A stretch of 64,000 nt of DNA from a virus (IMGVR_UViG_3300024353_000005:17675-81674); one strand, 5' to 3'. Positions 11,657 through 54,601 are shown, numbered from the stretch's first letter. Notes: a model not told the origin generated them from the sequence alone. Translations and numbers: made by a program.

Positions 11657-11778
11657 TTTATTCTCTTTAATGTTAGTTCGTGAATATCCTTAATAAATTT
11701 CTTGATTTGATATACCACATACTTTCGTTCATCCCATAATCTAAGTAAAAACCATTTTAAATAATAAATAAATTTCAT
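11653..11778 (-). CDS. Small basic aromatic peptide, 41 aa
   Basis: Begins MKFIYYLKWFLLRLWDER: an aromatic amphipathic helix, perhaps membrane associated. Placed 2 bp after the giant glycosyltransferase gene and coupled (ATGA) to the zinc-ribbon gene. Confidence 0.5.
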   Translation of the reverse strand: MKFIYYLKWFLLRLWDERKYVVYQIKKFIKDIHELTLKRIK

Positions 11779-11779
11779 T

Positions 11780-14700
11780 TTATCCTCCTAATCTAACCAA
11801 CCAACTTGTGTCCTTAAAAGTTTCTATTCTTTGTTTCCCAAATATCTCATCAACTGCTTTCGTAACATCTGGTAAATACCCGTAATCGTGTCCACCAATC
11901 ATTCCATTCGGCTTTATCTTTGGTAGCCAAGTTTCAATATCTTCTTTCACATTTTCATACTGGTGATTACCATCTATATAAACAAAATTAAAAGCCTTGT
12001 CCCCAGATTTTTTACTCTCTTTTGCACTCTCGCCTTTTATTTTTATTACATTATTAAATTTCTTCATTCTAATATCAAAAGCCTGTTCTATTAATTCCAT
12101 AGGATATTGTTGATAAAACGATTTATCATCCCCATCATAGTAATTCTTCCAAGGGTCAATAGCATAAACTCTTTTACATTTCTTGGCGAATAGTTCGGTA
12201 GACTCCCCTATGTAACTTCCAACCTCTACCATAACACATTCCTTCGGCAATCCGCTAATCAGTTCTTGTAATCCTTCTTTTCCTCCTACAAAGTTCCTCA
12301 CATACATCCCTTTTGGAATATCGCTTTCTTTTATTATTTTACTTTTTTCCACAGTCTTATCAGTAACCTCATAAAAATAAGTCAAATTATATGGGTTAAA
12401 TTGCGCTGTAGATTTATAACCAAAAGATGCTAAATAATTATCTATTCTTTGTTTCAAAATAGCCGATTTCGCTTCTATAAATAAGTATGGATGACATTTC
12501 TGCAAAGTCTTTTTAGCACCCTGTAATACATTATACTCATAATCTTCAACATCTATTTTGATAAGTGATATTTCCTCATCTTTCAATACTTCATCAAGGG
12601 TAATCATTTTTATAGAGTTTCCCTCTTTTATATAAGTCCTTCCATCATATTCTATTCCTGATCCACTTGGGGATTTTTCTAAATCACAAAAACCTGCTTT
12701 CGCTCCCACAGCATAAGGAAAAACTTTAATGTCCCTCAACTTATTCATTTTTATATGATTTTCTAATACTTTTCTAACCTTATCATATGGCTCAAAAGCA
12801 AAAATTTTAGAGTGTGGACAAAATAAACTAAAAAATATAGTATGATTTCCTATATTAGCCCCCACATCTACTATAACTTTATTTTTATCAAGCTTTAATT
12901 TTCTTGAGAACTCCAATAACTCCTCTTCATAGAAATTCCCATTCCACAAAAACCTCTGATTACTAACATCATTATTCGTAATAGATGTATCTATCCAAAT
13001 TACCTTGTTGTAATTCTTTAATAGAACTTCTCTTTTTTCAGCTAAGATTGCTTTCCATTTTCCATATTGCTCATTTTTAGTCAATATATTCGGCTTTGTT
13101 ATATGTCCACCATTTTCGTGTGCCTCTAAAATCTCTCGCATAAATTTATCTTTATCATCTGTCAATAAATCGCTGTTTACGGCCTCTCTCAAAGCACCAT
13201 AGCCTTTCGTGCAAAGTATATGAGTTCGGCAACCCAATATTTCCGCCAAATAAGGGGATACCCCAAATGTTTCTGGGAAATCGTTGACATAAAACATTCC
13301 TACCGAACTTGCTATCTCCCTTATTACATCTTCTAATGTAGAGAGACTCCCTAAAAATACTATCCCAGCTTCCTTTAATTTTTGCTCGTTCACCTTATCA
13401 TACCCAGGTGTGCAAACATATAACTTTGCACCTATAAATCGACCATCCTTTTTTAGTTCCGACCATAGTTTAATCGTGCTATCTAATCCTTTCACATTAG
13501 CACTTGCATAGATATATTTATTCTTATCTTTCTCTGCTTTGTAATTATAAATCCAATCTGGAAGCCACAATTTTATCGTTTCAATATTCTTAACATATTT
13601 TTCGAAGAGAGATTTCTGCCAATCTGATACTGTAATAAGAGTAGCGTTATCCTTATTTAAAGCCTCGAATAAATGCTTATGAGCAAGCGGTGGTGCATCG
13701 TGTGCCCATACAATAAGTCTTTTATATTTAATTGGAGGCAAACTGCTATATCTAAAAACTATCAGGGTATCGCACTCGTAATTATAACAGTTATTATAGT
13801 TTTTCCACAATATTCTATCATGCACCTTTGGTTTATCAGTTCTAGAGAAAGCCAGCACTTTCTTTTCTTTAGCAAGCTCGGTTAGTAAAAGTGATGCTTC
13901 TAATATTGAAGCCCCGACCCCTCTCTCTTTCCAAGTTCTTGAGGTAAATGGTGTCGTAACATCATCGTAAAAGATAATATCATATTTTATAGGTTTCTTC
14001 TCTTTATAGTTAATCACAGCAAACTTTTTATTTGTAGTATTGTATTCAACATATTTCTTTCTTAATTTCTTTGATACATTTTCGAGTAATTGCTTTTCCA
14101 TTCCACGATTTGTATCATCGATTAGTATAGGAACTTTGGTATTAAATAATTTGAGATTTTCATAAAAACCCTTTCTTCCTATATACCCAGGTGGGCCATC
14201 TACTAATATTATGTCATACTTGGTCGGAAGTTCCTTTTTTAATATATCCACATCATACCAGCCATTTTTTATAGATGCATAAATATATTTAGCCCTATTT
14301 GTAAGATTAAGCCACTCTTTATCATGCTCCACAGAATATACTTTGTAGTCCTTCGCCAAATCTATTGTGCTTTTCCCACTTCCAAGTTCTAGTATGGTGC
14401 TTCCTCTTGGGATATTCCTTCTTATCCAATTATACATTTCCTTATCCATAGACCACTCTGAAATTTTGTTCAGTGAAAATTCTCGATTCTTTATATTCTG
14501 CTCTTTAATAGATTTAGGAATTCCTGTCATAGAATCTATCCTATTACATACCCTAATCGACTCCGCATATTTTCCTACATAATAAAGAGCAATTGAATAC
14601 TCAAACAACATCAAATAACTGTAGATATTCTGCTCAACGAATAACACATCTAATTTGGGATATTTTATTCCGATTCCTATTCTGGAGAACTCGTATGCCA

Positions 14701-15541
14701 GTTGCCTCTGTCCAAGATTGCGATATAAAAGTGTCAGTTTAAAAATGGCTTCTGCTCTCGTTGGTCTGTAGTTATATGCCTTTAGATAACTGGTAATAGC
14801 TTTATTGTTATCTTTGAGTAATAAATAACAGTTGCCTATCTGATATAAACTGCGATAAACTTCCTCTTGCCAACCTCCGAAATTTACTCGTTTCCGATAA
14901 TATCTGATAGCCTGCTGGTATCTACCATCTTCCCGCAAAGATTGAGCCAAATAAAATGTATATCTCACCTTATTTTCTGGGTCTGTCTTTATAGCATTTT
15001 TCAAAATCTCAATATCCCTCTTTATCTTTGTGGAATAATTCATAGCTCGCTTCCCGTCGTGCAAATCCATAAATCTGATATTATTTAATTGTCCAACAGT
15101 TGCTTTATTAGTGGATAAGAAGTTGTGTATAATTCCCTTATACTTACATCCACAATCAGGCTTAAAAATCTTGGGGAAATGGTGCTGCAATGTTGGATAT
15201 TTTACGATACAGTTATAAATGTCTTTATCCAGTTTATCCTTATCAAAATCCTTATCAACTTCTAAAACTTGGTCGGCATCCATTACCAAGATATAATCTG
15301 CTTTGCCCTTTGCTTCCTCGATATAATAGTTTCTGGTTTCGCCAAATCCAGCCCAATCCTTTATGATTATTTCCCCTGGAATATCCTTGAGAACATCACG
15401 AATAATCTCCACAGTATTATCAGTAGATTTGGTATCCTCTATTATCACATAGGAGTCAATGATGCCCTTGACGGAATCGAGGCAACGTTTTATCACCCTC
15501 GATTCGTTTTTGACTATCATTGCTAATGCTAAAGTTTTCAT
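11780..15541 (-). CDS. Giant multidomain glycosyltransferase/methyltransferase, 1253 aa
   Basis: Domains in order: GT2 glycosyltransferase (1-140, AMIVKNES and metal site MDADQ at 87-91); TPR-like helices (about 190-345); class I methyltransferase-like fold (370-515, ILELGSGKST and VDGPPG); GT4-like glycosyltransferase region (520-835, FYDDVTTPF, NDFPETFGVSPYLAEILG); FkbM-type methyltransferase (885-1060, VDVGANIGNH, KIDVEDYEYNVLQGA); and a Methyltransf_24-type domain (1095-1250, VEVGSYIGES, YIDGNHQYENV). It could build and O-methylate a glycan on DNA, virion or host surface. Fusion of five catalytic-type domains in one chain is unusual. Acceptor unknown; the first methyltransferase-like fold may be inactive. 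Confidence 0.85.
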   Translation of the reverse strand: MKTLALAMIVKNESRVIKRCLDSVKGIIDSYVIIEDTKSTDNTVEIIRDVLKDIPGEIIIKDWAGFGETRNYYIEEAKGKADYILVMDADQVLEVDKDFDKDKLDKDIYNCIVKYPTLQHHFPKIFKPDCGCKYKGIIHNFLSTNKATVGQLNNIRFMDLHDGKRAMNYSTKIKRDIEILKNAIKTDPENKVRYTFYLAQSLREDGRYQQAIRYYRKRVNFGGWQEEVYRSLYQIGNCYLLLKDNNKAITSYLKAYNYRPTRAEAIFKLTLLYRNLGQRQLAYEFSRIGIGIKYPKLDVLFVEQNIYSYLMLFEYSIALYYVGKYAESIRVCNRIDSMTGIPKSIKEQNIKNREFSLNKISEWSMDKEMYNWIRRNIPRGSTILELGSGKSTIDLAKDYKVYSVEHDKEWLNLTNRAKYIYASIKNGWYDVDILKKELPTKYDIILVDGPPGYIGRKGFYENLKLFNTKVPILIDDTNRGMEKQLLENVSKKLRKKYVEYNTTNKKFAVINYKEKKPIKYDIIFYDDVTTPFTSRTWKERGVGASILEASLLLTELAKEKKVLAFSRTDKPKVHDRILWKNYNNCYNYECDTLIVFRYSSLPPIKYKRLIVWAHDAPPLAHKHLFEALNKDNATLITVSDWQKSLFEKYVKNIETIKLWLPDWIYNYKAEKDKNKYIYASANVKGLDSTIKLWSELKKDGRFIGAKLYVCTPGYDKVNEQKLKEAGIVFLGSLSTLEDVIREIASSVGMFYVNDFPETFGVSPYLAEILGCRTHILCTKGYGALREAVNSDLLTDDKDKFMREILEAHENGGHITKPNILTKNEQYGKWKAILAEKREVLLKNYNKVIWIDTSITNNDVSNQRFLWNGNFYEEELLEFSRKLKLDKNKVIVDVGANIGNHTIFFSLFCPHSKIFAFEPYDKVRKVLENHIKMNKLRDIKVFPYAVGAKAGFCDLEKSPSGSGIEYDGRTYIKEGNSIKMITLDEVLKDEEISLIKIDVEDYEYNVLQGAKKTLQKCHPYLFIEAKSAILKQRIDNYLASFGYKSTAQFNPYNLTYFYEVTDKTVEKSKIIKESDIPKGMYVRNFVGGKEGLQELISGLPKECVMVEVGSYIGESTELFAKKCKRVYAIDPWKNYYDGDDKSFYQQYPMELIEQAFDIRMKKFNNVIKIKGESAKESKKSGDKAFNFVYIDGNHQYENVKEDIETWLPKIKPNGMIGGHDYGYLPDVTKAVDEIFGKQRIETFKDTSWLVRLGG

Positions 15542-27122: not shown

Positions 27123-27338
27123 TTATAGCCAAATTTTTCTCTGGCCTCTATGAGCTATTTCTGAAGTTGCTACTTTACTATTCCATTTACAGTTTTTATT
27201 TTGACAATCTTTACAACCATTAAGCCTATCGAGTTCCTTTTTATAAAATTTATCCTTCTTTTCTCCCCTTTTCCAAGCCTCCTTTTCCAGAAAATAAAAA
27301 AGCCGAACCACCACAATATTCGGTAGCTCGGCTATCAT
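27123..27338 (-). CDS. Small cysteine-rich protein overlapping the second riboswitch; start uncertain
   Basis: The C-terminal part holds CKDCQNKNCKW, like other small zinc proteins of this phage. The first possible start (ATG 27338) lies inside aptamer 2, and codons 1-17 overlap the intrinsic terminator. No downstream ATG exists in frame, so the true start may be ATG 27338 or a GTG/CTG within the terminator region. If 27338 is used, aptamer folding would also affect translation. Confidence 0.5.
   Translation of the reverse strand: MIAELPNIVVVRLFYFLEKEAWKRGEKKDKFYKKELDRLNGCKDCQNKNCKWNSKVATSEIAHRGQRKIWL
27292..27332 (-). terminator. Intrinsic terminator of riboswitch 2 (expression platform)
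   Basis: Arms GCCGAGCTACC (27332-27322) and GGTGGTTCGGC (27312-27302) form 11 consecutive pairs, two of them G-U, followed by TTTTTATTTT. The 5' arm is part of the aptamer, so ligand-bound folding should prevent termination (an ON switch). Confidence 0.85.
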
Positions 27339-27392
27339 TTCTGACCCGTAGCTTTGCGCTTCGCTATTTCAGCGAATTGCCTTTATCGTAAT
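27316..27392 (-). promoter_or_regulatory. Cyclic-di-GMP-I (GEMM) riboswitch, second of a tandem pair
   Basis: On the minus strand: AAAGGCAATTCGCT, loop GAAAT, AGCGAA, then the diagnostic GCGCAAAGCTACGGGTC, a short loop and GATAGCCGAGCTACCGAA. This matches the conserved c-di-GMP-I aptamer (AAAGGCAAACC, GAAA-capped P2, GACGCAAAGCCACGGGTCT, AGACAGCCGGGTTGCCGAA). The 3' strand of the aptamer is also the 5' arm of an intrinsic terminator. Confidence 0.88.
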
Positions 27393-27607: not shown

Positions 27608-29113
27608 CTAATTTTTATTTTTTTCAAATCTACTTTTTTCTCGTAATACCTGCAAAAATATATCTACTAATTCTGGATCAAATTGTTTTCCCTTCTCTCG
27701 TTCCAATTCTTCTATTGCTTGTTCCTTAGTTTTAGGATTTCCATTATAGGGTCTTTTGTGTATCATTGTATCATAACTATCTAAAATAGCAGTAATACGA
27801 GAAAGTAAAGGGATATTCTGACCTCTCAATCCATCAGGATAACCAGTTCCATCCCATCTTTCGTGGTGGCGTAATATGTAATCCGCTATATGAGAAAATT
27901 GCCTTACCCCTTTTAAAATGTTATAGCCTAAAATTGGATGAGTTTTCAGCTTTTTCCATTCTTTTTCAGTTAAAGGTTCTTTTTTATGAAGTATTCTGTC
28001 TGGAATGCCTATCTTACCTATATCGTGAAATTTAATAGTATAATGTAAATCTCTTATTTCTTGAAGTGATAAATGAAGTCTTTTAGCGAATTTAGCTCCC
28101 AATTTTATTAATCTATTATGATGTATTTGAGTTCCCATATCTTTTTGTTTCATAACTTCAATTAAACTATTAATAAATTCTTTCTGAGCAGTGCCTTCTT
28201 TATCCATTTTATCTTTATACATTTCTTCATCTGCTTTAGATATATATCTATTTAAATCTTCTTTTTTAAATTCAGTTATTGTAATAGATCCAATAGCATA
28301 GTTAATATTAATTTTTTTAACTTCTAAAGAATAAGATTTACATTTTCTATTTAATTTCTTAATAATTTCTTCTGCACGACTTCGGTCTGTTTGTTTAAGA
28401 AGGATTGAAAATTCGTCCCCCCCAATTCGTGCTACTACATCGTCTTGTCTTACGCAATTTCTCATAGACTTTCCAAAATATCGAAGTATCTTATCCCCTG
28501 CTGGATGTCCCCAAGTATCATTAATAATTTTTAAATGATTTACATCTATTGAGATTATAGAAATGGGATAGTTTCTTTTAGTATTTATTCTTCTCAATTC
28601 TTCTTCAAAATAAGTTCTGTTATATAACTCTGTCAACGAGTCGTGATAGGCATTATATTTTATCTGCTCTTGTAATTTTCTGTGCTCAATTCTACTTTTT
28701 TGTAATTGCAATTTTATTTGTCGCTTTGTTTGTCTTGCCATATACTCTTGAAAACTTGTTTTTATAACCTCCAGAAAAGTTAATGTGTCATAGGGTTTTA
28801 TCAAAAGCTTTTTAATTCCTATTTCTAACAATTGTTGTGTTTGTTTTAATGTTAAAATTAAACCAGTTATTACTATAATACAAGTGTCAGGATAATTTAA
28901 TTTTATATAATAAGCTAAATCTACCCCATTTCCATCAGGTAATTCAATATCAATTATTACTACTCCAATATTATTTTCTTTGAAGATTTTCAACCCTTCC
29001 TGAAAAGAATTAGCAATTAAAGTTTTATAACCCTGAGCTTGAAGATTTATAGAAATAGCTTTTGCTAATTCTTTGTCATCTTCTATAATAGCTATTTTAG
29101 GAATATTATTCAT
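27608..29113 (-). CDS. REC-GGDEF-HD-GYP c-di-GMP synthase/hydrolase
   Basis: 501 residues from ATG 29113 (GAGAGAG upstream, ATGA overlap). Receiver domain 5-120 with EDD, phospho-acceptor D55 in VIIDIELPDG and KP at 106-107. GGDEF domain about 150-310 with intact GGDEF (231-235) and an inhibitory RxxD site exactly five residues before it (R222-D225). HD-GYP domain about 325-495 with HDIGKIG (HD at 363-364), HPILGY and HERWDGTGYPDG (GYP at 424-426). Both activities, making and degrading c-di-GMP, look intact and could be switched by phosphorylation. No cognate kinase is in the window. It is the last gene of the operon starting near 33.35 kb. Confidence 0.92.
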   Translation of the reverse strand: MNNIPKIAIIEDDKELAKAISINLQAQGYKTLIANSFQEGLKIFKENNIGVVIIDIELPDGNGVDLAYYIKLNYPDTCIIVITGLILTLKQTQQLLEIGIKKLLIKPYDTLTFLEVIKTSFQEYMARQTKRQIKLQLQKSRIEHRKLQEQIKYNAYHDSLTELYNRTYFEEELRRINTKRNYPISIISIDVNHLKIINDTWGHPAGDKILRYFGKSMRNCVRQDDVVARIGGDEFSILLKQTDRSRAEEIIKKLNRKCKSYSLEVKKININYAIGSITITEFKKEDLNRYISKADEEMYKDKMDKEGTAQKEFINSLIEVMKQKDMGTQIHHNRLIKLGAKFAKRLHLSLQEIRDLHYTIKFHDIGKIGIPDRILHKKEPLTEKEWKKLKTHPILGYNILKGVRQFSHIADYILRHHERWDGTGYPDGLRGQNIPLLSRITAILDSYDTMIHKRPYNGNPKTKEQAIEELEREKGKQFDPELVDIFLQVLREKSRFEKNKN

Positions 29114-29355
29114 TTTTTCTCTCTCAAATAAACCATTCGTCTTACACATCCCGCAGGAATTAGTATAGGCTCATCTTCAGGATGACCATTTATTCTCTTC
29201 AGAACAACTTTCTCTTTATCCTTATGCCATAAATAACCAACGATTTTTATTTCAGGCAATACTAAATCTTCTATTTTCCATACTCCTTTACCATAAGAAA
29301 TCATATCTACGAGGGTAATCTCTACTCGCTTGTATTCTCTTTTCCTTTTACCCAT
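29110..29355 (-). CDS. Small basic beta-rich protein, 81 aa
   Basis: Begins MGKRKREYKRVEITLVDMI; hydrophobic strands with a late Cys (IPAGCVRRMV). It is translated just before, and coupled (ATGA) to, the REC-GGDEF-HD-GYP gene, so it may act in the same pathway. No family recognised. Confidence 0.6.
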   Translation of the reverse strand: MGKRKREYKRVEITLVDMISYGKGVWKIEDLVLPEIKIVGYLWHKDKEKVVLKRINGHPEDEPILIPAGCVRRMVYLREKK

Positions 29356-43619: not shown

Positions 43620-43625
43620 GTGAAT

Positions 43626-44978
43626 TTGACCTTTCCTTTCTTTAATAGGCATAAGCGAGAAAAAGACAAGCTTATTGCCGAGATACAAGATTTACAGAAA
43701 AAAGCAGTTCAAGAACCCAAAATAGACCCAGCATCCTATATTCACGATTATAGTGAAAGTGATGAAACTAAGGGTAGGGATACTCGTGTTAGCTACTCGA
43801 TGCTGGAGCAGATATACAAGAAAGAATCTTGGGTGAGAGCATGCGTAGATGTTATAGTTAGAACCGCCACCTCAAATGGGTGGCGTTTACTTTCTATAGA
43901 GAGTAAAATTGACTTAAAAGGAGCTGAGTTAAGCAAAGCTTTATCCTCAAATTTAAAAATAATGGCTTTAAAGGACTTGCTAGAAGAACCCAATGCGGAT
44001 GACACATTTTCAGATATAGTCGCTGAAATTATCACAGATTTGCATATTTATGGCGATGCTTATGTTGAGGTTGTAAGAGATAAGGCTACTGATTTGCCAG
44101 TAGCCCTTTATAATGTATATTGTCCATCAATGAGAATCAAAGTTGACGAGCATGGTCGGGTGTTGGGTTATGTTCAGGTTTTTGATTGGCAGATAGTTGC
44201 CGAGTTTAAACTTAACCAGATTATCCATTTTAGACTAATTAATCCTGGTTCAGAAGTTTATGGCTTATCACCTCTGGAAAGTTTAATCATACCCATTGAA
44301 ACCGATCTTTATGCTCAAGCATATAACAAAAACTTTTTCAAAAATGATGCGACACCAAGATTGCATGTTGATTTAGGTAATTGTACGCTACCTCAGTTAA
44401 AGAGAATGAGGGAATATTGGCGAACTGTTTATAAGGGTAGTGGTAAATCCCATAAAACAATTATAACTGAGGGTGGGGCAAAAATAACTCCCATCGGAAC
44501 TCCTCCAAAGGATATGGAGTTCTTGAATCAGAGGAAATTTAACCGAGATGAGATTTTGGCTGTTCTCGGTGTGCCTCCGATTATGGTTGGAATAGTTGAA
44601 AGTTCAAACAGGGCAAACTCAAAAGAACAAGCAAATGCTTTTAAAACAGAGAAAATTATTCCACTTCAAAAAATGGTAGCAGCCAAATTAAATAAGCTAT
44701 TGATTTCTGAGTTCACAAATAAATACACTTTCAAATTCGCTGAATTAGATTTGCGAGATGCTTTGGATGCAGCAAGGATAGACCAGATGGATTTGAAAGC
44801 TGGAATTCGTGATATTGAGGAAGTTCGCAGAGACAGGGGATTACCTCCCAAGAAGAAACATTCGATTGAGCAAGAAGAAATTGAAGAGCCACAGGAAAAG
44901 CCAAAAAAGAAGACCAAAAGAGATAAGAAGTCGAAGAAGATTATCAGATTTTTGAAAGAAGACAAGGAAAGGGAATAG
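43626..44978 (+). CDS. Phage portal protein (HK97-like family)
   Basis: About 450 residues. Characteristic portal segments: YSMLEQIYKKESWVRACVDV, IITDLHIYGDAYVEV, IIHFRLINPGSEVYGLSPLE, FFKNDATPRLHVDL, and the ILAVLGVPPIMVGI clip region; the C-terminus is a Lys/Glu tail. Portals form the 12-fold ring through which DNA is packaged. The start is set at TTG 43626 because AGGAG (43615-43619) is then 6 bp away; the GTG at 43620 would touch the ribosome site. No terminase gene precedes it in this window. Confidence 0.9.
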   Translation: MTFPFFNRHKREKDKLIAEIQDLQKKAVQEPKIDPASYIHDYSESDETKGRDTRVSYSMLEQIYKKESWVRACVDVIVRTATSNGWRLLSIESKIDLKGAELSKALSSNLKIMALKDLLEEPNADDTFSDIVAEIITDLHIYGDAYVEVVRDKATDLPVALYNVYCPSMRIKVDEHGRVLGYVQVFDWQIVAEFKLNQIIHFRLINPGSEVYGLSPLESLIIPIETDLYAQAYNKNFFKNDATPRLHVDLGNCTLPQLKRMREYWRTVYKGSGKSHKTIITEGGAKITPIGTPPKDMEFLNQRKFNRDEILAVLGVPPIMVGIVESSNRANSKEQANAFKTEKIIPLQKMVAAKLNKLLISEFTNKYTFKFAELDLRDALDAARIDQMDLKAGIRDIEEVRRDRGLPPKKKHSIEQEEIEEPQEKPKKKTKRDKKSKKIIRFLKEDKERE

Positions 44979-45054
44979 GCGGGTAAATTGAGTTTACTCA
45001 GCGAAAAAAAAGATAACTCAATTTAGGGCTGGCACGAAATAAGGTTTGCCCGCC
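44978..45054 (+). other. Structured RNA between portal and ligase genes
   Basis: GGCGGGTAAA (44978-44987) pairs with TTTGCCCGCC (45045-45054) and, inside, AAATTGAGTT (44985-44994) pairs perfectly with AACTCAATTT (45015-45024); the three A bases are shared, so the helices compete or stack. It begins at the last base of the portal TAG stop. It may control translation of the next gene, which lacks a ribosome site. Confidence 0.6.
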
Positions 45055-45074
45055 CTCCTAATATTTTAAAAAAT

Positions 45075-48000
45075 ATGAAAGAAAATACCAAAAAAGATTT
45101 AATAGTTCATCCCAGAAAGATAACTCCTGATATGAAAGCAGTTAAATTATCGGAGGTTGTTTCAGTTGTAGATTCATTTGTAATAAAAAATCCATTTCTA
45201 TTTTTGACAGGTGGGATAGTTAATCGGAATAAAACGAAGGGCGACTTTGATATTTTGTATCGGGCTGAGTATTTACCAGATAGGATGCTCCAAGAAATTA
45301 AAGAAAGACTAATGAATAGACTCAATGACGATTTGAGAAGTCGGAGTCACCTGATGACAGATGCCTACCATGGCCCTTTTACCTCAAATATCCCATTGGG
45401 AAAGTTACAAGTAACTAAAGTAGAAGAAAAGGCAGAGAAAAAATCTTATATCCCAGTCGGTTCTTCTGGTGTTGAAATGGGAGAAGATATTCACTTAAAT
45501 GATATTCTGAAAGGTCTTTCCTCTTTTGTATTTGAAGAAAAGTTTCTATGGTTAGTTGGCGAACTACCAGCAAATGGCGAAACCAAAAAATATATTGATT
45601 TTGTTTTTTGCTATCCAAAACTTCCATTATCTATTTCGGTTGCCCTTAAGTTTAGAATATGGAGAGCACTCCCCAAAGAATACTGGCATCGAATTAGGTA
45701 TCGGTTCGACACGAACTTCGAGCCATCCGATACAGATATTTGTCTTGGGAAATTAGAATTTATTTTAAATCCAGAATTTAATATAGTTGAGATGAGCTTG
45801 AAAAATTTAACTGCTAAACAAAGAGCTGCATCACCAGAAATAAGAGCTCAAGCAAAAGCCTCGTCGGAAGAAGACAAAGTTAAACTGTTTAGATTTTATT
45901 TACCGCTTAAACCAATTAGAGGATATTTCCCAAGGGAAAGACAGACTATCGGTTTATTTGTATCAATTGTAACAGATGAAAGTAAAGGGCCTTGGTATTC
46001 GACAAAGAAGTATGATGGATTAAATCTGGAGTTTCATTACGATAAAGGCAAAGCAACAATTATTAGCGAAGATGGAGAAGACAATACTGGTAGGTTTCCA
46101 AAGTTAATTGAAGAATTGAAGGAACTCGGTGCAGATAATTTTTCTTTTATAGCAGAAATAGAGTTATGGAAAACGGTGGATGGAGAATTGAAACATCAAC
46201 CGAGAGAAGCTGTTATAGGGAGAGTTCACAGGAAAGGCGAACCAGACGAAACTGGTTTGGTCGCAAATGTTTACGATATAACCTATCTGAATGGTAAAGA
46301 TATTCATAATGAGCCATTTGAAAAACGATTGCAAGCTTTGAAGTCTTTAAAATTTTTACAGGCAACTTGGAGAAAACCAAATTTAAAATATAAACTAAAT
46401 AGAGCACCAGCAGTCTTGAGCAAGTCAGCAGAAGATATTAGAAAGCATACACAATTTTTAAGAAAACTTGATGGTTCAGAAGGAAATGTAATTAAACTCT
46501 CATCTGCCAAATATAGATTGGATGGGAAAAGAAGTAATCAATGGAAATTCCATAACTCTGGAACTGCTAATGTAATTGTTATAGAAGCCATAGAAACAAA
46601 AGTGAAAAACATATGGAATTATCTTTTTGGACTTGACCCGCAGGATAAGAAAGTCCCAGAAAAACTTTTGGTTGAAATTGGTGGAAAGAAATATCTCAAG
46701 GTGGGAAAAACATTTTCTTCTGCTCGACCAATGAAAAAGGGCGATGTATTTTTGCTAGAATATGAAACTCTTAATTTGGAACGAAATGAAAAAACCGATG
46801 AAATAAAGGTAACGGCTTGGGCACCGAGGGAATTGGGAAAAGTTGAAGAAAAAGTTGATACAATAGATAATGCTGTGAGGAAAGCGAAAGCTGGATTAGT
46901 ATTTCAAGAAAAAATAATTCCAGTGGAAGGAGAAATTATTTACAAGATTGGATTAACTCCAGATTTGGAAAAACAAGTCTTGCTTTATAAGGAAGTTCCA
47001 GCCGAGGATAAAGGCCCTTATAAATATATCTGTCATCATCATTGGAGAGGCAAGAGCTGTCATACTGATTTACGTATTGTAGCAAAGCGTGGCGAATATG
47101 CAATTGGTTGGACGATAGATGATTTGATAAAGGGTGCTATTAAAGAGCCAGTAGTAACTATGAAGGAAGCGAAAAGAATTGAGAAAGAAGGCAAAGCATT
47201 TAAGATAGATTGGAAAACTGGAAAATTCGCTATGCGGAGAACTGCTGCTGGACAAGTAAAACCGACTGAATTACGAGCACACGAAAAAGCCAGAATACCA
47301 ATTGAATGGATGGAAGTTCAAGGAGTCGCTCCTGCTGGAACAGTTGGGGCAACAAAGGAGTATCCAGCTGTATTTTTAATTATAGATAAGGGTAAGGCAC
47401 AATACTTGACACAAAAGCCAGCTTTTCACGAATATTGGATGGATGGCACGCTAAAAGGCAGATTGGTTTTTCGCAGATTAGAGCAGAAAGCTTTTAAAAG
47501 TTTAGTGGAGAGGGGAATTTTACCAGAGTATATCTTGAATAGTTTTAATGCTTCATTGGCTTATGTAAATAAGGAACTCAATCCAACTGAAATTAATTGG
47601 GTTCCATTGACTAAGAATGGTTGTATAGTATTTAGGAAATCTGATTTAAGAAAAATTATTTTGCCACCGTCGGAAATTCCAGAAGGGAAACCTCGTGTAG
47701 GAGTTTTCTGGGTTGCGATTCAACCTATTGTGCAAGTTCCTTATGTTATTTCAAGACGAGCAGTAAATAAGAAGTGGGTTCCACCAAAAGGCTTTTCAGC
47801 ATTACCGTTAAATTTGAAAAAGAAAGTTCCAGAAGAGTTTAAATACTGGACAAAAACAAAAATAGGCGAAAGACGAAAAATTAGGGATGCTTATTTTGAA
47901 TATTTGAAAAAGCAACCGAAAAAGAAAAAAGTAGTAGAGAAGAAAGTGGGAACATTTCCATTTGCATTACATTGGCATTGGTTTCGTGGTCCAGTAGTTG

Positions 48001-48569
48001 TTAGGCGAGGACCATCTTCGCAACATTGGGATGTTAGAATAGATAATGGCGAAATGCCTTTCCCACATTTTCAATGCACCGAAAATCCAGCAGTAATTGA
48101 TAAAACAACCTGTGTGTATAAGCCTTGCAAAGTTAGAGAGGCACTTGAATGGAACGGTTCAATAGCCCCTGCTGGAGTTACTAAAGAACTGATTGAGGTA
48201 ACTGTAGTAGAAAAAGTCGATGAAACTGCTGAAGGAGAAATTTACACTGTTAAAGATAAAAAAGGCGAAATACATACTTCCAAGCCAGTTCGGTTTCCAC
48301 GATTGAAAAAGGATGACAAGGTTTGGATGGATCATTTGGAAAGATTATGGACTATTATTAATACCGACGCTAATCCGACAAAGAATACTCCAGCTTATTC
48401 AGTTTTGATAGATGATGGGAAAGCGGAAGTATTGGAAGATTCAGATTTATTTAAGAAAGTTAGATTTAGAGGGAAAAGTCTTAAAGGATTATATACATTT
48501 ACAAGAGAAGATCCGAAAACAGATATATGGGTAATGGAAAAAAGTGGTTTACCAGGAGAGGAAAGATAA
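45075..48569 (+). CDS. Giant ATP-dependent DNA-ligase-like protein with duplicated NTase-like and LigD-PE-like parts, 1164 aa
   Basis: Two related N-terminal segments (about 33-115 and 150-232: FLFLTGGIVNR...GDFDIL and FLWLVGELP...YIDFVF, each ending LGKL) look like tandem nucleotidyltransferase-type domains. Residues 285-500 are a covalent nucleotidyltransferase ligase: lysine in KYDGLN (K312), FIAEIELW (358-365), EGNVIKLS (469-476), NQWKFH (488-493). Two later regions resemble the LigD 3'-phosphoesterase: YICHHHWRGKSCHTDLRI (651-668) and FALHWHWF...SSQHWDVRI (963-989). It may seal and process DNA ends of the packaged genome. No ribosome site precedes ATG 45075. Confidence 0.8.
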   Translation: MKENTKKDLIVHPRKITPDMKAVKLSEVVSVVDSFVIKNPFLFLTGGIVNRNKTKGDFDILYRAEYLPDRMLQEIKERLMNRLNDDLRSRSHLMTDAYHGPFTSNIPLGKLQVTKVEEKAEKKSYIPVGSSGVEMGEDIHLNDILKGLSSFVFEEKFLWLVGELPANGETKKYIDFVFCYPKLPLSISVALKFRIWRALPKEYWHRIRYRFDTNFEPSDTDICLGKLEFILNPEFNIVEMSLKNLTAKQRAASPEIRAQAKASSEEDKVKLFRFYLPLKPIRGYFPRERQTIGLFVSIVTDESKGPWYSTKKYDGLNLEFHYDKGKATIISEDGEDNTGRFPKLIEELKELGADNFSFIAEIELWKTVDGELKHQPREAVIGRVHRKGEPDETGLVANVYDITYLNGKDIHNEPFEKRLQALKSLKFLQATWRKPNLKYKLNRAPAVLSKSAEDIRKHTQFLRKLDGSEGNVIKLSSAKYRLDGKRSNQWKFHNSGTANVIVIEAIETKVKNIWNYLFGLDPQDKKVPEKLLVEIGGKKYLKVGKTFSSARPMKKGDVFLLEYETLNLERNEKTDEIKVTAWAPRELGKVEEKVDTIDNAVRKAKAGLVFQEKIIPVEGEIIYKIGLTPDLEKQVLLYKEVPAEDKGPYKYICHHHWRGKSCHTDLRIVAKRGEYAIGWTIDDLIKGAIKEPVVTMKEAKRIEKEGKAFKIDWKTGKFAMRRTAAGQVKPTELRAHEKARIPIEWMEVQGVAPAGTVGATKEYPAVFLIIDKGKAQYLTQKPAFHEYWMDGTLKGRLVFRRLEQKAFKSLVERGILPEYILNSFNASLAYVNKELNPTEINWVPLTKNGCIVFRKSDLRKIILPPSEIPEGKPRVGVFWVAIQPIVQVPYVISRRAVNKKWVPPKGFSALPLNLKKKVPEEFKYWTKTKIGERRKIRDAYFEYLKKQPKKKKVVEKKVGTFPFALHWHWFRGPVVVRRGPSSQHWDVRIDNGEMPFPHFQCTENPAVIDKTTCVYKPCKVREALEWNGSIAPAGVTKELIEVTVVEKVDETAEGEIYTVKDKKGEIHTSKPVRFPRLKKDDKVWMDHLERLWTIINTDANPTKNTPAYSVLIDDGKAEVLEDSDLFKKVRFRGKSLKGLYTFTREDPKTDIWVMEKSGLPGEER

Positions 48570-50047
48570 TGAATAAAATGTTTGATGAACCAACAAAAGA
48601 CGAAGCTATTGATTTAACGGAATTTGAGCCATCCAAAGCTGGTATCATAGATAAATTTTTAGGAACAAAACCACATAAGAGACGAACATTACATAAGAGT
48701 TTTCCAGGGTTTAAGGCAGCATTATTTTTTAAGGCGGTTACAGAAATTTTAAATGGGTATAAGATTTATGCTACTATTAGTATTTCTCGTGGTGAATTAG
48801 CTGCTCCAGAATATTCTTATTTGGCGGTTGGCAGAGATAAAAGAGAAGAACTTCTTATTGATGGTTACAGATTAGTTGAGAAAGATGGTAATAGAGTAGT
48901 TATTCTTGTAGAGCCAGGGATGAGAAGTATGTATTTAGATATTTATTATCCTGAAGAGAAGTCCGATTTAGCTTTGAATTTTTTAAAATCTGTTGAAAAA
49001 TATATGTCAGAAAATAATTTTTATAAAGGAGAAAAGATAACTCCTGCTGGTGAGTTTTTGCCTATTCCAAATTTAACATTTGATGATGTGAAATTACCAA
49101 TGGATAAAAAAGAGGCAATTAGAGTAGGAGCATTGGAGTTTTTTAAGAAAAAAGAAATATATGATAAGAATAATATTCCTTACAAAAGAGGTTTAATTCT
49201 TACTGGTCTTCCAGGAACTGGTAAAACTCTAACAGGTAAAATTTTACTGGCTCAAAGTGATTGCACATTTATATGGGTTACACAGGATATGGTTTGTTAT
49301 AGTGAAGATATCAAATATATGTATGATATGGCAAAGGAATTGGCTCCTTGTATTCTTTTTATGGAAGATTTAGACGACTATTTAGAAAAAAGTTCTGCTG
49401 TTGGTGTAGTAAAAACCCAAATGGATGGACTCACTTCTGTAGATGGTATTTGCACAATTCTTTGCACAAATTATCCTGATAGATTGCCAAAAGCTCTTCT
49501 TGATAGGCCGAGTCGTTTTGACGAAGTTGTTATATTCAGTTTGCCAGATGAACAACTTAGATATGAAATTTTAAATAAACTTGCACAACCTATGAACATC
49601 ACTAATAAAGATAAATGCTTAAGAGATATTGCATCGAAGTCCGATGGTCTAACTGGAGCCCATCTAAAGGAAGTTTTAGTTTATGCACTATTACTTTCTG
49701 CCGATGATGGTAGAGATATTGTGGAACTTAATGATTTAGAAAAATCACTTAAGAAGGTTTTAAAAACCAGAGAGTTAGTTAATGGTAAAATTGGTTTGAA
49801 GTCAATGGAAGAAATTGTTGATATGATTAAGAAAGAACTTGCAAAAGAAGACACAGAGGAAGCTCGGAAAGTTAAAGTTATTATAGTAAATGTTCCAAAG
49901 GAAATTTGGGAGTGTCCTTATTGTCACAAAGAAATTGGTGAGAAGGGAATATATTATGATGATGAAGTAGGAAAGCATTATCATAGACCATGCAAAAATC
50001 GTGGGAGCATAATTTTACCAGGTGAAGAAGGAGAGGAAACAAAATGA
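48569..50047 (+). CDS. AAA+ ATPase with C-terminal zinc domain, 492 aa
   Basis: ATG 48569 overlaps the ligase stop (TAATG) with AGGAGAGG upstream. An N-terminal domain (1-190) precedes Walker A GLPGTGKT (213-220), Walker B CILFMEDLDD (261-270), sensor CTNYPDR and arginine finger RPSRFDEV. The end carries CPYCHKEIGEKGI...HYHRPC, a LIM-like zinc knuckle. A Cdc48/FtsH-type AAA core between portal and protease is unusual. It could remodel capsid or ligase proteins. Confidence 0.85.
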   Translation: MNKMFDEPTKDEAIDLTEFEPSKAGIIDKFLGTKPHKRRTLHKSFPGFKAALFFKAVTEILNGYKIYATISISRGELAAPEYSYLAVGRDKREELLIDGYRLVEKDGNRVVILVEPGMRSMYLDIYYPEEKSDLALNFLKSVEKYMSENNFYKGEKITPAGEFLPIPNLTFDDVKLPMDKKEAIRVGALEFFKKKEIYDKNNIPYKRGLILTGLPGTGKTLTGKILLAQSDCTFIWVTQDMVCYSEDIKYMYDMAKELAPCILFMEDLDDYLEKSSAVGVVKTQMDGLTSVDGICTILCTNYPDRLPKALLDRPSRFDEVVIFSLPDEQLRYEILNKLAQPMNITNKDKCLRDIASKSDGLTGAHLKEVLVYALLLSADDGRDIVELNDLEKSLKKVLKTRELVNGKIGLKSMEEIVDMIKKELAKEDTEEARKVKVIIVNVPKEIWECPYCHKEIGEKGIYYDDEVGKHYHRPCKNRGSIILPGEEGEETK

Positions 50048-51660
50048 ACAATTTATTTGATAATTTGCAGTTTAAAGTCTATACAGATATTCTGAAGAAA
50101 TCTAAAAAGGATGGTAAGCGTCTTATCAGTGGATATGCTTCTACTGCTGCCCTCGATAGGCAGAACGAAGTTATTACTATAGAAGCATTGCGACAGGCTG
50201 CGAATCATCTGCTTGAAAACCATACTGTTTTCTACGAACATGAGCATCAAAAATTTCCCGTCGGAAAAGTTGTTGAAACAGGAATTGATGATAAAGGTTT
50301 GAGAGTTATTGTGGAGATTTCACAAACAGCCGACCAACTGTGGACATTAATAGAGGAAGATATTCTTGATAGTTTTAGTATCGGTGGCAGAGTAACATCA
50401 TCAGAGGAAAAAGTGGGAAAAGATGGTAAATCTTATAATGAGGTTACAGGCATAGAATTATTTGAGGTAAGTGTTGTTGGATTACCAGCTAATCCTGAAG
50501 CGAAATTTGCATTAGTAAATAAATCTTTTAACACAGCGATTACAGACGAAATCAAAAAGAGAAAGGAGGGGAAAGAAATGGCAGAAGAAAAGAAAATCGA
50601 AACTACTGATTCTGATACTACTAACATTACTGTTTCTGATGGAACTTCTGATGTTGTTGAGACTACAGAACCCAAAGCCGAAGAAAAGAAGGTTGAGGAG
50701 ATTGTGAAGGAAACAGCAGAGAAAAAAGAAACTACAAAAGTAGAAAAGAAAGAGGATAGTAAAATAGTAGAGAAGGAAGATACTCAGAAAGAGGATTTGG
50801 AGAAATATGAAAAAGAGGATAAAGAAGCCTCTGAAAAAATAGAGAAAGAAAAAGTTGAGGGTACAAAGACTGAATCTGCTTCTATAGCCTTAGACGATAC
50901 TTCTACTATTCAAATTAATCTCTTACCAGATAAAACTGATGATACAGTTTCAGAAGAAAAAGAGGAAAAATCTGAACCAGTGGAAGAAAAGAAGGAAGAA
51001 CCGAAAGTAGAGGAAAAAAAGGAAGAAGAGGTAGAAGACGATAGTGAAGCAACTTGGGAACTTTTAGTTGATGAAGTTGAAAATGCTAAACAATATCCCT
51101 ATCCTTATTATCCATATCCTTATGCAAAACTAGGTGAAGAGGTAAAGGAGATTATTTTCTTATTGGATAAACTTATCGCAAAAGAAACCAATGAGGATGT
51201 AAAAGCTATATTGCAGGAGATAAAGGCGAAGGTCTCAAAATTGGTTGGTCAGGCATATCCTTATCCTGAGAAATATCCTTATCCGAAAAAGGAAGAAGAA
51301 GCTGGGAAGCAATATCCAGCTCCTGAAGCTCCTCTAAAAGAAGTTTTGGCGAGTCTTAAGGATTTAGGTAAGAAGATTGATGAGGTTCTTGCAAGACTTC
51401 CTGAAAAAGATGTTGAAGTAAAAGAGCCAGAGAAGAAAAAGGAAGAACCTAAAGTTGAGGAAAAAATTTTAGAGGCTGAAAAGAAAGAAGAGCCAAAAGT
51501 TGAAAAGAAAGTTGAGAAAGCGGAAGAAGAAAAACCACAAAGAAAAAGTTTTATAGCAGATGCTCCTTATGCCGATAAGAAAAAGGATGAGGAGAAGAAA
51601 GATGTTAAAAAGACAACTGATAAAGGTTGGAACCGAATAGTATTTGGAGAACAAAAATAA
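50044..51660 (+). CDS. Prohead protease (S78 type) fused to scaffold region, 538 aa
   Basis: Residues 1-165 are an HK97-like prohead protease: GYASTAALDRQNEVI, catalytic histidine in FYEHEHQKFPVGK, serine in DSFSIGGRV, and VSVVGLPANPEA. The rest is a Lys/Glu-rich, coiled-coil, scaffold-like region with YPYPYYPYPY repeats. The protease digests the scaffold after assembly, allowing capsid expansion. Start overlaps the ATPase stop (ATGA). Confidence 0.85.
   Translation: MNNLFDNLQFKVYTDILKKSKKDGKRLISGYASTAALDRQNEVITIEALRQAANHLLENHTVFYEHEHQKFPVGKVVETGIDDKGLRVIVEISQTADQLWTLIEEDILDSFSIGGRVTSSEEKVGKDGKSYNEVTGIELFEVSVVGLPANPEAKFALVNKSFNTAITDEIKKRKEGKEMAEEKKIETTDSDTTNITVSDGTSDVVETTEPKAEEKKVEEIVKETAEKKETTKVEKKEDSKIVEKEDTQKEDLEKYEKEDKEASEKIEKEKVEGTKTESASIALDDTSTIQINLLPDKTDDTVSEEKEEKSEPVEEKKEEPKVEEKKEEEVEDDSEATWELLVDEVENAKQYPYPYYPYPYAKLGEEVKEIIFLLDKLIAKETNEDVKAILQEIKAKVSKLVGQAYPYPEKYPYPKKEEEAGKQYPAPEAPLKEVLASLKDLGKKIDEVLARLPEKDVEVKEPEKKKEEPKVEEKILEAEKKEEPKVEKKVEKAEEEKPQRKSFIADAPYADKKKDEEKKDVKKTTDKGWNRIVFGEQK
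50578..51660 (+). CDS. Nested scaffolding protein from an internal start, 360 aa
   Basis: An in-frame ATG at 50578 has AGGAGGGG 7 bp upstream, within the protease gene. It would yield the C-terminal scaffold alone (MAEEKKIETTDSDTTNITVS onward), as with lambda Nu3 inside the protease gene. Tyr/Pro repeats at about 51095-51125 and 51255-51290. Confidence 0.7.
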   Translation: MAEEKKIETTDSDTTNITVSDGTSDVVETTEPKAEEKKVEEIVKETAEKKETTKVEKKEDSKIVEKEDTQKEDLEKYEKEDKEASEKIEKEKVEGTKTESASIALDDTSTIQINLLPDKTDDTVSEEKEEKSEPVEEKKEEPKVEEKKEEEVEDDSEATWELLVDEVENAKQYPYPYYPYPYAKLGEEVKEIIFLLDKLIAKETNEDVKAILQEIKAKVSKLVGQAYPYPEKYPYPKKEEEAGKQYPAPEAPLKEVLASLKDLGKKIDEVLARLPEKDVEVKEPEKKKEEPKVEEKILEAEKKEEPKVEKKVEKAEEEKPQRKSFIADAPYADKKKDEEKKDVKKTTDKGWNRIVFGEQK

Positions 51661-51716: not shown

Positions 51717-52718
51717 ATGTTAGACGATGCAATTAAAAAAGCTGTTGGAATAGGATTACAGAAAGCTGATGCTGAGGACTTGTTATCATCTGAAATCGGA
51801 AACTTCTTACCTACCGAGTATGCTACAGAGTTTGTAGCCTTGGTGAGGGAGAAGAATTATGCCCGTGAACTTTTCAGAACGATAACTATGCCTACAGCTA
51901 CTTTTGAGATTCCTAGAATCGATGCAGATGCTACGGTGTACTATGTCTCTGGTGAGGCTACTGCCCCTACTGCAAAATCAAGTCTTGATACTGCTTTTGC
52001 TGGTAAGGTTACTTTAGTGGCTAAGAAATTGATGGCGTATACTGATATTTCTACCGAAGTGGAAGAGGATTCTAAAGTTGCAATGCTTCCTCTTATAAAG
52101 GATGCTTTTGCAGAAGGAGTCGCTACTGCTGAAGAGAAAGCTATGATTCAGGGCGATCCAGCACTTAGTTGGAGCAATGCTCAAGATGTTAGAGAAGCTC
52201 TTGAAGGAGTTCTTAAATTGGGTGCTGCTAAAGTTGTGGCTTATGCTACTTCTTTGTTAGCTACTATTGAAGTTGCTAGAGTTGCGATGGGCAAGTATGG
52301 TCGTGGTGTTGATAAGCTGATACTTTTAGTTAGTCCTTACACTGCTTCTAAATTACGCCAAGAACAATCTGTTCTGACTGTTGAAAAATATGGTCCGAAC
52401 GCAACGATTCTTAAAGGTGAATTAGGGCAATATATGGGTATTAAACTCATAGAATCTCCCTATATCCCTGAAGAATTGACAGTTAGCGTAATGGAAGGCG
52501 GAGCACTTACAGGAGCTGATTTAGGTGTTGCTATTCTAATGAGAAAGGATGCGGTTATTATCGGTGACAGACGGAAAGTAAAGTTTGAATCTGATAAGAT
52601 TATCGAAGCAGATGCTCTTAGAGTGGTAATCTCTGAAAGAATTGATTTTAAACAGACCCTTGGAGTTGGGTCAATCGTGAGAATCAGTGGTTTGGAGAAT
52701 AGCTATGTGGCACCATAA
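51717..52718 (+). CDS. Major capsid protein (HK97 fold)
   Basis: 333 residues with AGGAGGTG before ATG 51717. Recognisable HK97-type blocks: NYARELFRTITMPTATFEIP near the N-arm, VTLVAKKLMAYTDISTEVEE (P domain helix), GVATAEEKAMIQGD, and the C-terminal AVIIGDRRKVKFESDK, followed by VVISERIDF. It forms the icosahedral shell. Position after protease-scaffold supports the call. Confidence 0.87.
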   Translation: MLDDAIKKAVGIGLQKADAEDLLSSEIGNFLPTEYATEFVALVREKNYARELFRTITMPTATFEIPRIDADATVYYVSGEATAPTAKSSLDTAFAGKVTLVAKKLMAYTDISTEVEEDSKVAMLPLIKDAFAEGVATAEEKAMIQGDPALSWSNAQDVREALEGVLKLGAAKVVAYATSLLATIEVARVAMGKYGRGVDKLILLVSPYTASKLRQEQSVLTVEKYGPNATILKGELGQYMGIKLIESPYIPEELTVSVMEGGALTGADLGVAILMRKDAVIIGDRRKVKFESDKIIEADALRVVISERIDFKQTLGVGSIVRISGLENSYVAP

Positions 52719-53851: not shown

Positions 53852-54601
53852 ATGAGTGCAAAAAAAAGATACTATTGTATAGATTGTGGTAAAGAAATCA
53901 GTATTTTTTCTGGGTTTTATGGTCAAGGAAGATGTGGTTCTTGTGCTATGAAAAGAAGATTTAAGAATCCAGAGAATCATCCGAGGTTTGGGAAGCACAA
54001 CACAGCAGAATCTAAAAAGAAAGTAAGTTGCTTGTTAAAAGGAATAAAACGGTCTAGGGAAACAAAGGCAAAGATAAGTAAAGCAAATAGTGGCAAAAAG
54101 CCAAGTTTAGAAGCTCGAAAGAAAATGAGCAAAGCCCATAAAGGTCAAAAATCTTGGAACGAAGGGAAGTTGGGTGTTTATTCTGCTAAAACTTTAAAAT
54201 TAATGTCAAAGAGACAATTGGAAAATCCTATCAGATATTGGCTTGGTAAGAAGCGACCTTCCATAACAGGCAAGAAGAATTATCATTTTGGAAAACCTCT
54301 CAGACCTCATTGGGGTATGTATAAAGGAATAAATATGAGAAGTAACTGGGAAATATGGTTTGCCCAATTTTTAGATCTGAGTGGGTGTAAATGGAGATAT
54401 GAATCTAAAACTTTTGATTTGGGTAAAACTACATACACACCCGATTTTTATATTCCAGAGTGGAATCAGTTTATTGAAATAAAGGGATATTTTTCTCAAA
54501 AAGCTATAGATAAAATAGATTTATTTAAAGAACAATACCCTAAAGAGAATTTAAGAATTTTTAAGAGAGAAGATTTGAAAAAAATTGGTGTAATCGTATA
54601 A
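53852..54601 (+). CDS. Homing endonuclease, NUMOD3 repeats plus PD-(D/E)XK nuclease
   Basis: 249 residues. Zinc ribbon start (CIDCGKEIS, CGSCAMK), then NUMOD3 repeats (HNTAESKKKVS, SRETKAKISKANSGKKPS, LEARKKMSKAHKG). The C-terminus NWEIWFAQFLD, YTPDFYIPE, QFIEIKGY is a PD-(D/E)XK nuclease (D...EIKG). It is free-standing and placed inside the virion gene run. Confidence 0.82.
   Translation: MSAKKRYYCIDCGKEISIFSGFYGQGRCGSCAMKRRFKNPENHPRFGKHNTAESKKKVSCLLKGIKRSRETKAKISKANSGKKPSLEARKKMSKAHKGQKSWNEGKLGVYSAKTLKLMSKRQLENPIRYWLGKKRPSITGKKNYHFGKPLRPHWGMYKGINMRSNWEIWFAQFLDLSGCKWRYESKTFDLGKTTYTPDFYIPEWNQFIEIKGYFSQKAIDKIDLFKEQYPKENLRIFKREDLKKIGVIV

Follow-up and report, generated by a model that had tools for sequence, protein, structure and literature searches.

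The question raised by this locus is why a giant ligase-like protein is encoded among the head genes of a tailed virus. The window, by which is meant the whole stretch of 64,000 nucleotides that was analysed, belongs to an 81,674-base record of an uncultured tailed virus, and at 45075-48569 (plus strand) it contains an ORF that starts with ATG and has 1164 codons. This ORF is real; a frameshift or assembly artefact was considered and rejected, as the identical ORF (100% identity) is present in contig L001, which may come from the same sample. The genes for the portal protein, the ligase-phosphoesterase (PE) protein, an AAA+ ATPase, the S78 protease and the capsid protein follow each other on one strand:

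43620-44978, plus strand: portal protein, directly upstream of the ligase-PE gene (PF04860, 2.9e-59; phrog_12, 3.5e-77)
45075-48569, plus strand: NTase-NTase-ligase-OB-PE-linker-PE protein of 1164 residues, as assigned from the ORF call, Pfam, our own profiles and an AlphaFold2 model
48527-50047, plus strand: AAA+ ATPase, overlapping the stop of the ligase-PE gene (PF00004, 3e-18)
50044-51660, plus strand: prohead protease of type S78 (PF04586, 2.3e-14)
51717-52718, plus strand: HK97-type major capsid protein (PF05065, 1.2e-16)

The AAA+ ORF overlaps the 3' end of the ligase-PE gene, and the overlap between the AAA+ and protease ORFs is 4 bases. No clear ribosome-binding site is seen before the ATG of the ligase-PE gene, and a PHROGs search with the 1164-residue protein gives no match. 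The portal/ligase intergenic region contains a strong hairpin (44978-45057, z -3.4) that has no Rfam match.

The AlphaFold2 model of the protein, calculated with 36 alignment rows, has a mean pLDDT of 75.6, and the following segments are distinguished:

45108-45473, plus strand: NTase unit 1, residues 12-133, probable Pol-beta-like palm with GG...D57-x-D59 intact (own profile, 8e-40; model pLDDT about 65-86)
45450-45818, plus strand: NTase unit 2, residues 126-248, degenerate (own profile, 2e-12, and alignment; low model confidence)
45870-46934, plus strand: ATP-dependent DNA ligase adenylation domain and OB fold, residues 266-620, with the predicted catalytic Lys312 at 46008-46010 (PF01068, solved-ligase profile, model, Foldseek)
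47007-47489, plus strand: LigD-PE-like unit 1, residues 645-805, with H656, H663, D665 and R667, and with W745 at the place of LigD Tyr88 (profile, model, fold match, alignment)
47706-47912, plus strand: conserved helical linker, residues 878-946, PYVISRRAV..W..P..SALP..YW (pLDDT >90; common to most relatives)
47946-48545, plus strand: LigD-PE-like unit 2, residues 958-1157, with H966/H968 and H984-W-D986-V-R988 (profile, model, fold match)

The ATP-dependent DNA ligase core is intact, as judged from the sequence and the model, and K312 is its predicted adenylation site. Residues 299-490 match PF01068 (E 2.9e-17; 63.4 bits, compared with a curated Pfam cut-off of 26.2), which together with the ORF and its neighbours confirms the giant ligase-like protein that the initial annotation had placed between the portal and the AAA+ ATPase. 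Profile comparison with solved ligases gives an E-value of 2e-25, and Foldseek matches the ligase part to human DNA ligase 1 (Lig1) and archaeal ligases in the PDB at about 1e-17. The AlphaFold2 confidence of the ligase and OB regions is mostly 90-98; the C-terminal OB fold is strand-rich up to residue 620 (pLDDT >90), and the alignment with Lig1 extends over some 400 columns. The ligase motifs are all present: motif I (K312-Y-D-G), motif III (E361), motif IV (E469-G470...K474) and motif V (K491). When 25 relatives are aligned, K312 is Lys in all 23 that reach this site, E361 is kept in 24/24, the EG of motif IV and K474 in 25/25 each, and K491 in 23/25, so that the claim of a full motif set stands. 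There are exceptions among the relatives: L012 does not have the ligase Lys and L027 does not have most of the ligase, the PE and protease parts remaining in both, and from these losses it follows that some members of the family may be structural only. In six contigs (L054, L055, L056, L057, L058 and L063) the ligase domain is split at a similar point over two adjacent ORFs, which suggests a two-chain ligase.

The C-terminal units are of the LigD-3'-phosphoesterase-like fold, according to the predicted structure and profile comparison. The C-terminal half is modelled as two barrels, with a confidence of about 90 or more for the first unit and mostly 80-95 for the barrel strands of the second. 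The linker between them (residues 880-945) is modelled at about 90 or more, and its Y890 and W925 are kept in 28/29 relatives. When the PE half is modelled alone and compared with the PDB by Foldseek, ranks 1-7 are all LigD phosphoesterase domains (3p43, 3p4h, 3n9d, 3n9b twice, 5dmp and 2lj6), with a best E-value of 3.4e-5 and probabilities of 0.99-1.00, and rank 8 is unrelated. In hhalign comparisons with genuine LigD PE domains (from plasmid records, mostly annotated as ligD), copies 1 and 2 each score 94% and the third copy found in the family scores 90%; control profiles of portal, capsid, NTase and protease reach at most 0.13%. Other searches give nothing of this kind in the window: Pfam LigD_N (PF13298) has no match there and matches the relatives L035, L037 and L018 below its curated cut-off. 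With the PE half as query, hmmsearch on PDB sequences finds a single unrelated match (E 0.29), hence the need for a comparison of folds, and a Foldseek comparison with viral models stays empty at E <= 0.001. That the motifs are alike by chance can be dismissed in view of the Pfam match, the solved-ligase profile match and the Foldseek matches of the ligase and PE half.

The counterparts of the metal-site residues His42, His48, Asp50 and Arg52 of LigD are H656, H663, D665 and R667 in the first PE unit, and these are kept in 26-29/29 relatives. The roles of the PE residues in LigD have been described, and His84/Tyr88 mutation abolishes the PE activity of Pseudomonas aeruginosa LigD (PMC8656161). 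By sequence alignment, with no atomic superposition, both viral units are without residues matching His84 and Tyr88. The place of His84 is taken by I741 in the window protein and mostly by Gln in the family (His in 2/29), and the place of Tyr88 by W745, which is invariant (29/29). A near-invariant H785-E786-Y787 on a late strand of the first unit is new with respect to LigD. Because the counterparts of His84 and Tyr88 are replaced, the chemistry may have changed, and because they are missing, phosphoesterase activity is doubtful. The two LigD phosphoesterase-like units proposed initially thus hold as regards fold and metal-site residues, but not as regards this second pair of residues.

The N-terminal unit is probably a Pol-beta-like NTase, and this assignment is statistically weak. 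The first copy keeps G46-G47...D57-x-D59, and among 27 relatives G46 and D59 are kept in 27/27 and D57 in 23/27. The best PDB matches of the family profile, weak ones (E 0.17) in which GG...D-x-D is aligned, are TdT (terminal transferase) and pol mu; single members also give weak matches to PF01909 (NTP_transf_2; three relatives, best 0.0096) and to the pol beta palm (0.038). Fingers, a thumb and a clear third carboxylate are not seen in the unit, the third carboxylate being unclear in most members. The second copy is degenerate, because its first catalytic Asp is replaced by Tyr (YID), and its fold assignment comes entirely from homology, because model confidence is low there. Both copies match our own NTase profile (8e-40 and 2e-12), which was trained without the second copy, but only the first looks intact, and in this respect the initial description of two NTase-like units is qualified. 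Structure prediction, by which that annotation proposed to check its reading, finds the ligase and PE folds and models the second NTase unit at low confidence; the domain reading as such is borne out.

The protein may be compared with bacterial LigD, in which POL, PE and LIG domains are present in one polypeptide. The viral protein likewise unites an ATP-dependent ligase and its OB fold with a PE fold and a putative nucleotide-transferring domain, and it has the H42/H48/D50/R52 counterparts. The differences are that the viral NTase is probably Pol-beta-like whereas the POL of LigD is an AEP primase (no AEP-type POL domain is matched by Pfam in the 1164-residue protein), that the viral PE is duplicated, with three copies in some relatives, and that the domain order is another one, in a viral head locus. 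The 81.7-kb record, possibly an incomplete one, has no match to Ku (PF02735). From its sequence, the protein would work like LigD in its set of activities, and it is not a member of the LigD family. The earlier comparison with a viral NHEJ machine is apt in this functional sense, but goes beyond the evidence, given that no Ku, no AEP domain and no His84/Tyr88 matches are found. The closest solved folds to the C-terminal half are the archaeal stand-alone LigD-type phosphoesterases (3p43, 3p4h and the Methanocella protein 5dmp), which differ in being single-domain and cellular, the viral protein having two units fused to a ligase.

A tblastn search of 50,697 phage records finds one good relative, in ANMV-1, a virus of methane-seep archaea. 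This protein (AJP62006.1), annotated only as 'ATP-dependent DNA ligase', is homologous over nearly its whole length (27-38% by segment) and differs in having 866 residues and one NTase unit. Its gene starts 7 bases after the portal gene (L006 1913-3193; PF06381, 3.2e-22), which is mis-annotated as 'MutT-like phage hydrolase', and the text of the ANMV-1 paper mentions neither the ligase nor the portal. Scanning viral contigs with the ANMV-1 protein alone gives nothing, as does scanning genome contigs with a two-sequence alignment; a profile made from divergent PE halves is needed to detect the wider family. With single and profile queries of IMG/VR and a scan of GTDB genomes, 54 loci are obtained, near-duplicates being mostly removed, and ANMV-1 is the sole GenBank phage record among these approximately 54. 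Since a conserved PE stretch served as search motif, this number is a minimum and possibly a biased one. All four GTDB matches lie on MAG contigs assigned to archaea (Methanosarcinales, Euryarchaeota, Archaeoglobales and Thermoprotei), although viral contigs can end up in the wrong bin.

The single 1164-residue chain described initially is found in the window, but near relatives carry the ligase half and the PE half as separate ORFs (L002; L003 with L004), and the window gene is therefore seen as a fusion. In L003, the position occupied by the PE gene in near relatives, just behind the ligase ORF, is taken by a LAGLIDADG endonuclease ORF (11758-12234). The AAA+ neighbour is optional, since it is found in L004 and missing in L002. 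Among distant relatives the parts may be separate genes or be joined in one protein, of up to 1880 residues and with extra domains. These are a PNK3P 3'-phosphatase (3.7e-5) and a 2H phosphoesterase (2_5_RNA_ligase2, 6.1e-7), both found in L009 only, and metallo-beta-lactamase folds (L008, L010, L016, L021, L023, L028, L033 and L035). The prohead protease is the C-terminus of the unit in L012, L017, L018, L027 and L059/L060, in five distinct architectures, and PHROG 14859 (via L012), annotated 'RNA ligase', has a C-terminal part that matches the XkdF protease, which hints at ligase-protease fusions in reference phages. An apparent PE and Mu-F-like fusion in L008 is not relied on, the reading frame being broken there. 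In L010 (8914-9029) the ligase and PE ORFs overlap in different frames over the PE catalytic motif, by a programmed frameshift or an assembly error. Inteins are located at or near the ligase and PE catalytic motifs of several relatives; those with a LAGLIDADG endonuclease are found in L035 (2119-6687 and 6831-9842), L025, L021 and L029, possibly also in L080 and L081, where they occupy the ligase or NTase region, and in L035 also a place next to the PE catalytic motif.

In 48 of the 54 loci the unit has a head gene (portal, protease or capsid) as its neighbour. Profiles show this for 46, and PHROGs together with profiles for L008 and L020; the remaining loci are mostly short or have no recognizable neighbours. 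Some weak protease calls may be wrong, because the protease profile was grown on the same loci; it is on the portal and capsid calls that the link to the head mainly rests. The pairwise distances of the ligase and PE parts track those of portal and capsid (r 0.64-0.85, n=10-14), values reached in at most 1/2000 permutations, and portal against capsid gives 0.82; the median portal identity among the viruses of the family is 16%. When the window is compared with L002, the ligase has a dN/dS of 0.064 and PE1 one of 0.051, both below the values of the portal (0.079) and the capsid (0.121). Co-divergence and low dN/dS together indicate that the protein has been in the head module for very long and is strongly constrained. 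A recent cargo gene (moron) is rejected by the co-divergence with capsid and portal. The positions of the roughly 54 loci, the protease fusions and the co-divergence strengthen the earlier view that the protein belongs with the capsid proteins. That about 50 related virus sequences keep the unit within the head-building genes suggests a DNA-repair kit that is made together with the particles.

With about an even chance of being right, the preferred reading is that tailed viruses use the protein, in association with the head, to heal and seal DNA ends of their own genome, either while it is being packaged or once it has been ejected, the second being rated slightly likelier. It is directly supported by the domains, the ligase catalytic residues, the purifying selection, the position and the co-inheritance. 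Late expression, virion residence or packaging, the substrate and all the enzyme activities are what we infer. The enzyme would be made late, with portal, protease and capsid, and would probably be held at the portal or inside the procapsid, where the fusion may place it in the protease-fused members. The PE-like domains would clean 3' ends that carry a 3'-phosphate or a 3'-ribonucleotide, the Pol-beta-like NTase may add or fill in a nucleotide, and the ligase would self-adenylate on K312 and seal nicks or ends. In this way the viral genome would be packaged intact, or repaired or circularized on entry.

In T4, packaging depends on DNA ligase and the portal-bound endonuclease VII (PMC10893049), which are separate proteins, unlike the fused enzyme encoded next to the portal here. 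Packaging and injection are also assumed for enzymes whose genes adjoin, or are fused to, those of portal, MuF or prohead peptidase (PMC9503650). These precedents make it likeliest that the enzyme heals and seals viral DNA, at the portal or following ejection. The head-packaged polyvalent effectors (Alt; MuF- or protease-fused Nudix, ART and 2H enzymes) are host-directed, and in the passages of PMC9503650 consulted no kit of ligase and LigD PE is found; the genomic arrangement by which they are recognized, fusion to or an operon with portal or protease, is also that of the present family. The PNK-phosphatase, 2H and metallo-beta-lactamase domains of relatives, putatively further end-cleaning domains, count for end healing. 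Mycobacteriophage Corndog circularizes its incoming genome by end joining with a phage Ku and host NHEJ (PMC4351075), circularization being only proposed for the window virus; Corndog encodes only Ku, outside the head cluster, whereas the window virus encodes ligase and PE and no Ku is found. The Corndog portal-protease interval also holds methyl- and glycosyltransferase genes, not known as cargo (PMC4351075), and these unrelated enzymes call for caution against over-reading gene position.

If gene position has no meaning, the protein could be a plain cytoplasmic replication or repair DNA ligase enlarged by end-processing domains. The 81.7-kb record yields no other ligase (a single PF01068 match and none for an NAD-dependent ligase), and the core of the protein resembles the replicative Lig1 and archaeal ligases. 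This is rather unlikely, as the place beside portal, protease and capsid is kept across very divergent viruses, the unit diverges with the head genes and is fused to prohead proteases, and some members keep PE and protease without the ligase. The latter members, L012 without its lysine and L027 mostly without its ligase, speak for another reading, in which former enzyme folds have become structural or scaffolding parts of head morphogenesis near the portal; the degenerate second NTase unit and the PE units without two LigD catalytic residues also count for it. The ligase motifs are, however, near invariant in all other members, dN/dS is 0.064, and inteins are at or near catalytic motifs in several relatives, so that a purely structural component is very improbable.

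RNA could also be the substrate, the protein being a (tRNA) repair kit against host anticodon nucleases, possibly injected, like the RNA repair of jumbo phages, in which NTases work with RNA ligases (PMC7824862). The PNK3P and 2_5_RNA_ligase2 domains of L009 and secondary RNA_ligase Pfam matches in L011, L023, L026 and L037 point in this direction. DNA_ligase_A_M is, however, always the far better match (for example 8e-25 versus 3.6e-7), the OB fold and the solved-structure matches are those of DNA ligases, and PNK and 2H domains are confined to L009; RNA repair is accordingly improbable.

A wider form of the end-healing reading is put forward tentatively, as a doubtful but possible extension: a widespread, Ku-independent, virion-borne break-repair system, largely of archaeal and deep-sediment tailed viruses, in which a Pol-beta-like NTase, a Lig1-like ligase and duplicated LigD-PE units would be loaded at the portal, delivered with the genome, and heal or circularize it on entry. 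No description of a portal-linked ligase was found among the open-access papers searched; the components are known, and their assembly and place are new within the sources searched. If the reading is right, a conserved DNA-repair enzyme is built into the tailed-virus head module, including that of archaea-linked viruses (ANMV-1 and the four archaeal MAG contigs), the set of activities known from LigD evolved twice, out of different components, and there is a testable answer to how aged or nicked virion DNA becomes replicable. Giant proteins of sediment viromes that are so far called 'hypothetical' can thereby also be named.

Some other features of the window are recorded here. A c-di-GMP-I riboswitch (RF01051, 57.1 bits) at 27319-27391 (minus strand) is upstream of a 186-residue ORF and downstream of a response-regulator/GGDEF/HD gene at 27608-29149 (minus strand). 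The riboswitch and this gene suggest a bacterial host and a virus-borne c-di-GMP circuit, which is in tension with the archaeal links of the relatives. Among the structural genes, the ORF at 53852-54601 has NUMOD3 repeats and a phage endonuclease I-like domain, and is probably a free-standing homing endonuclease. At 11780-15541 (minus strand), a protein of 1253 residues combines a glycosyltransferase 2 domain, TPR, an FkbM methyltransferase and a second methyltransferase.
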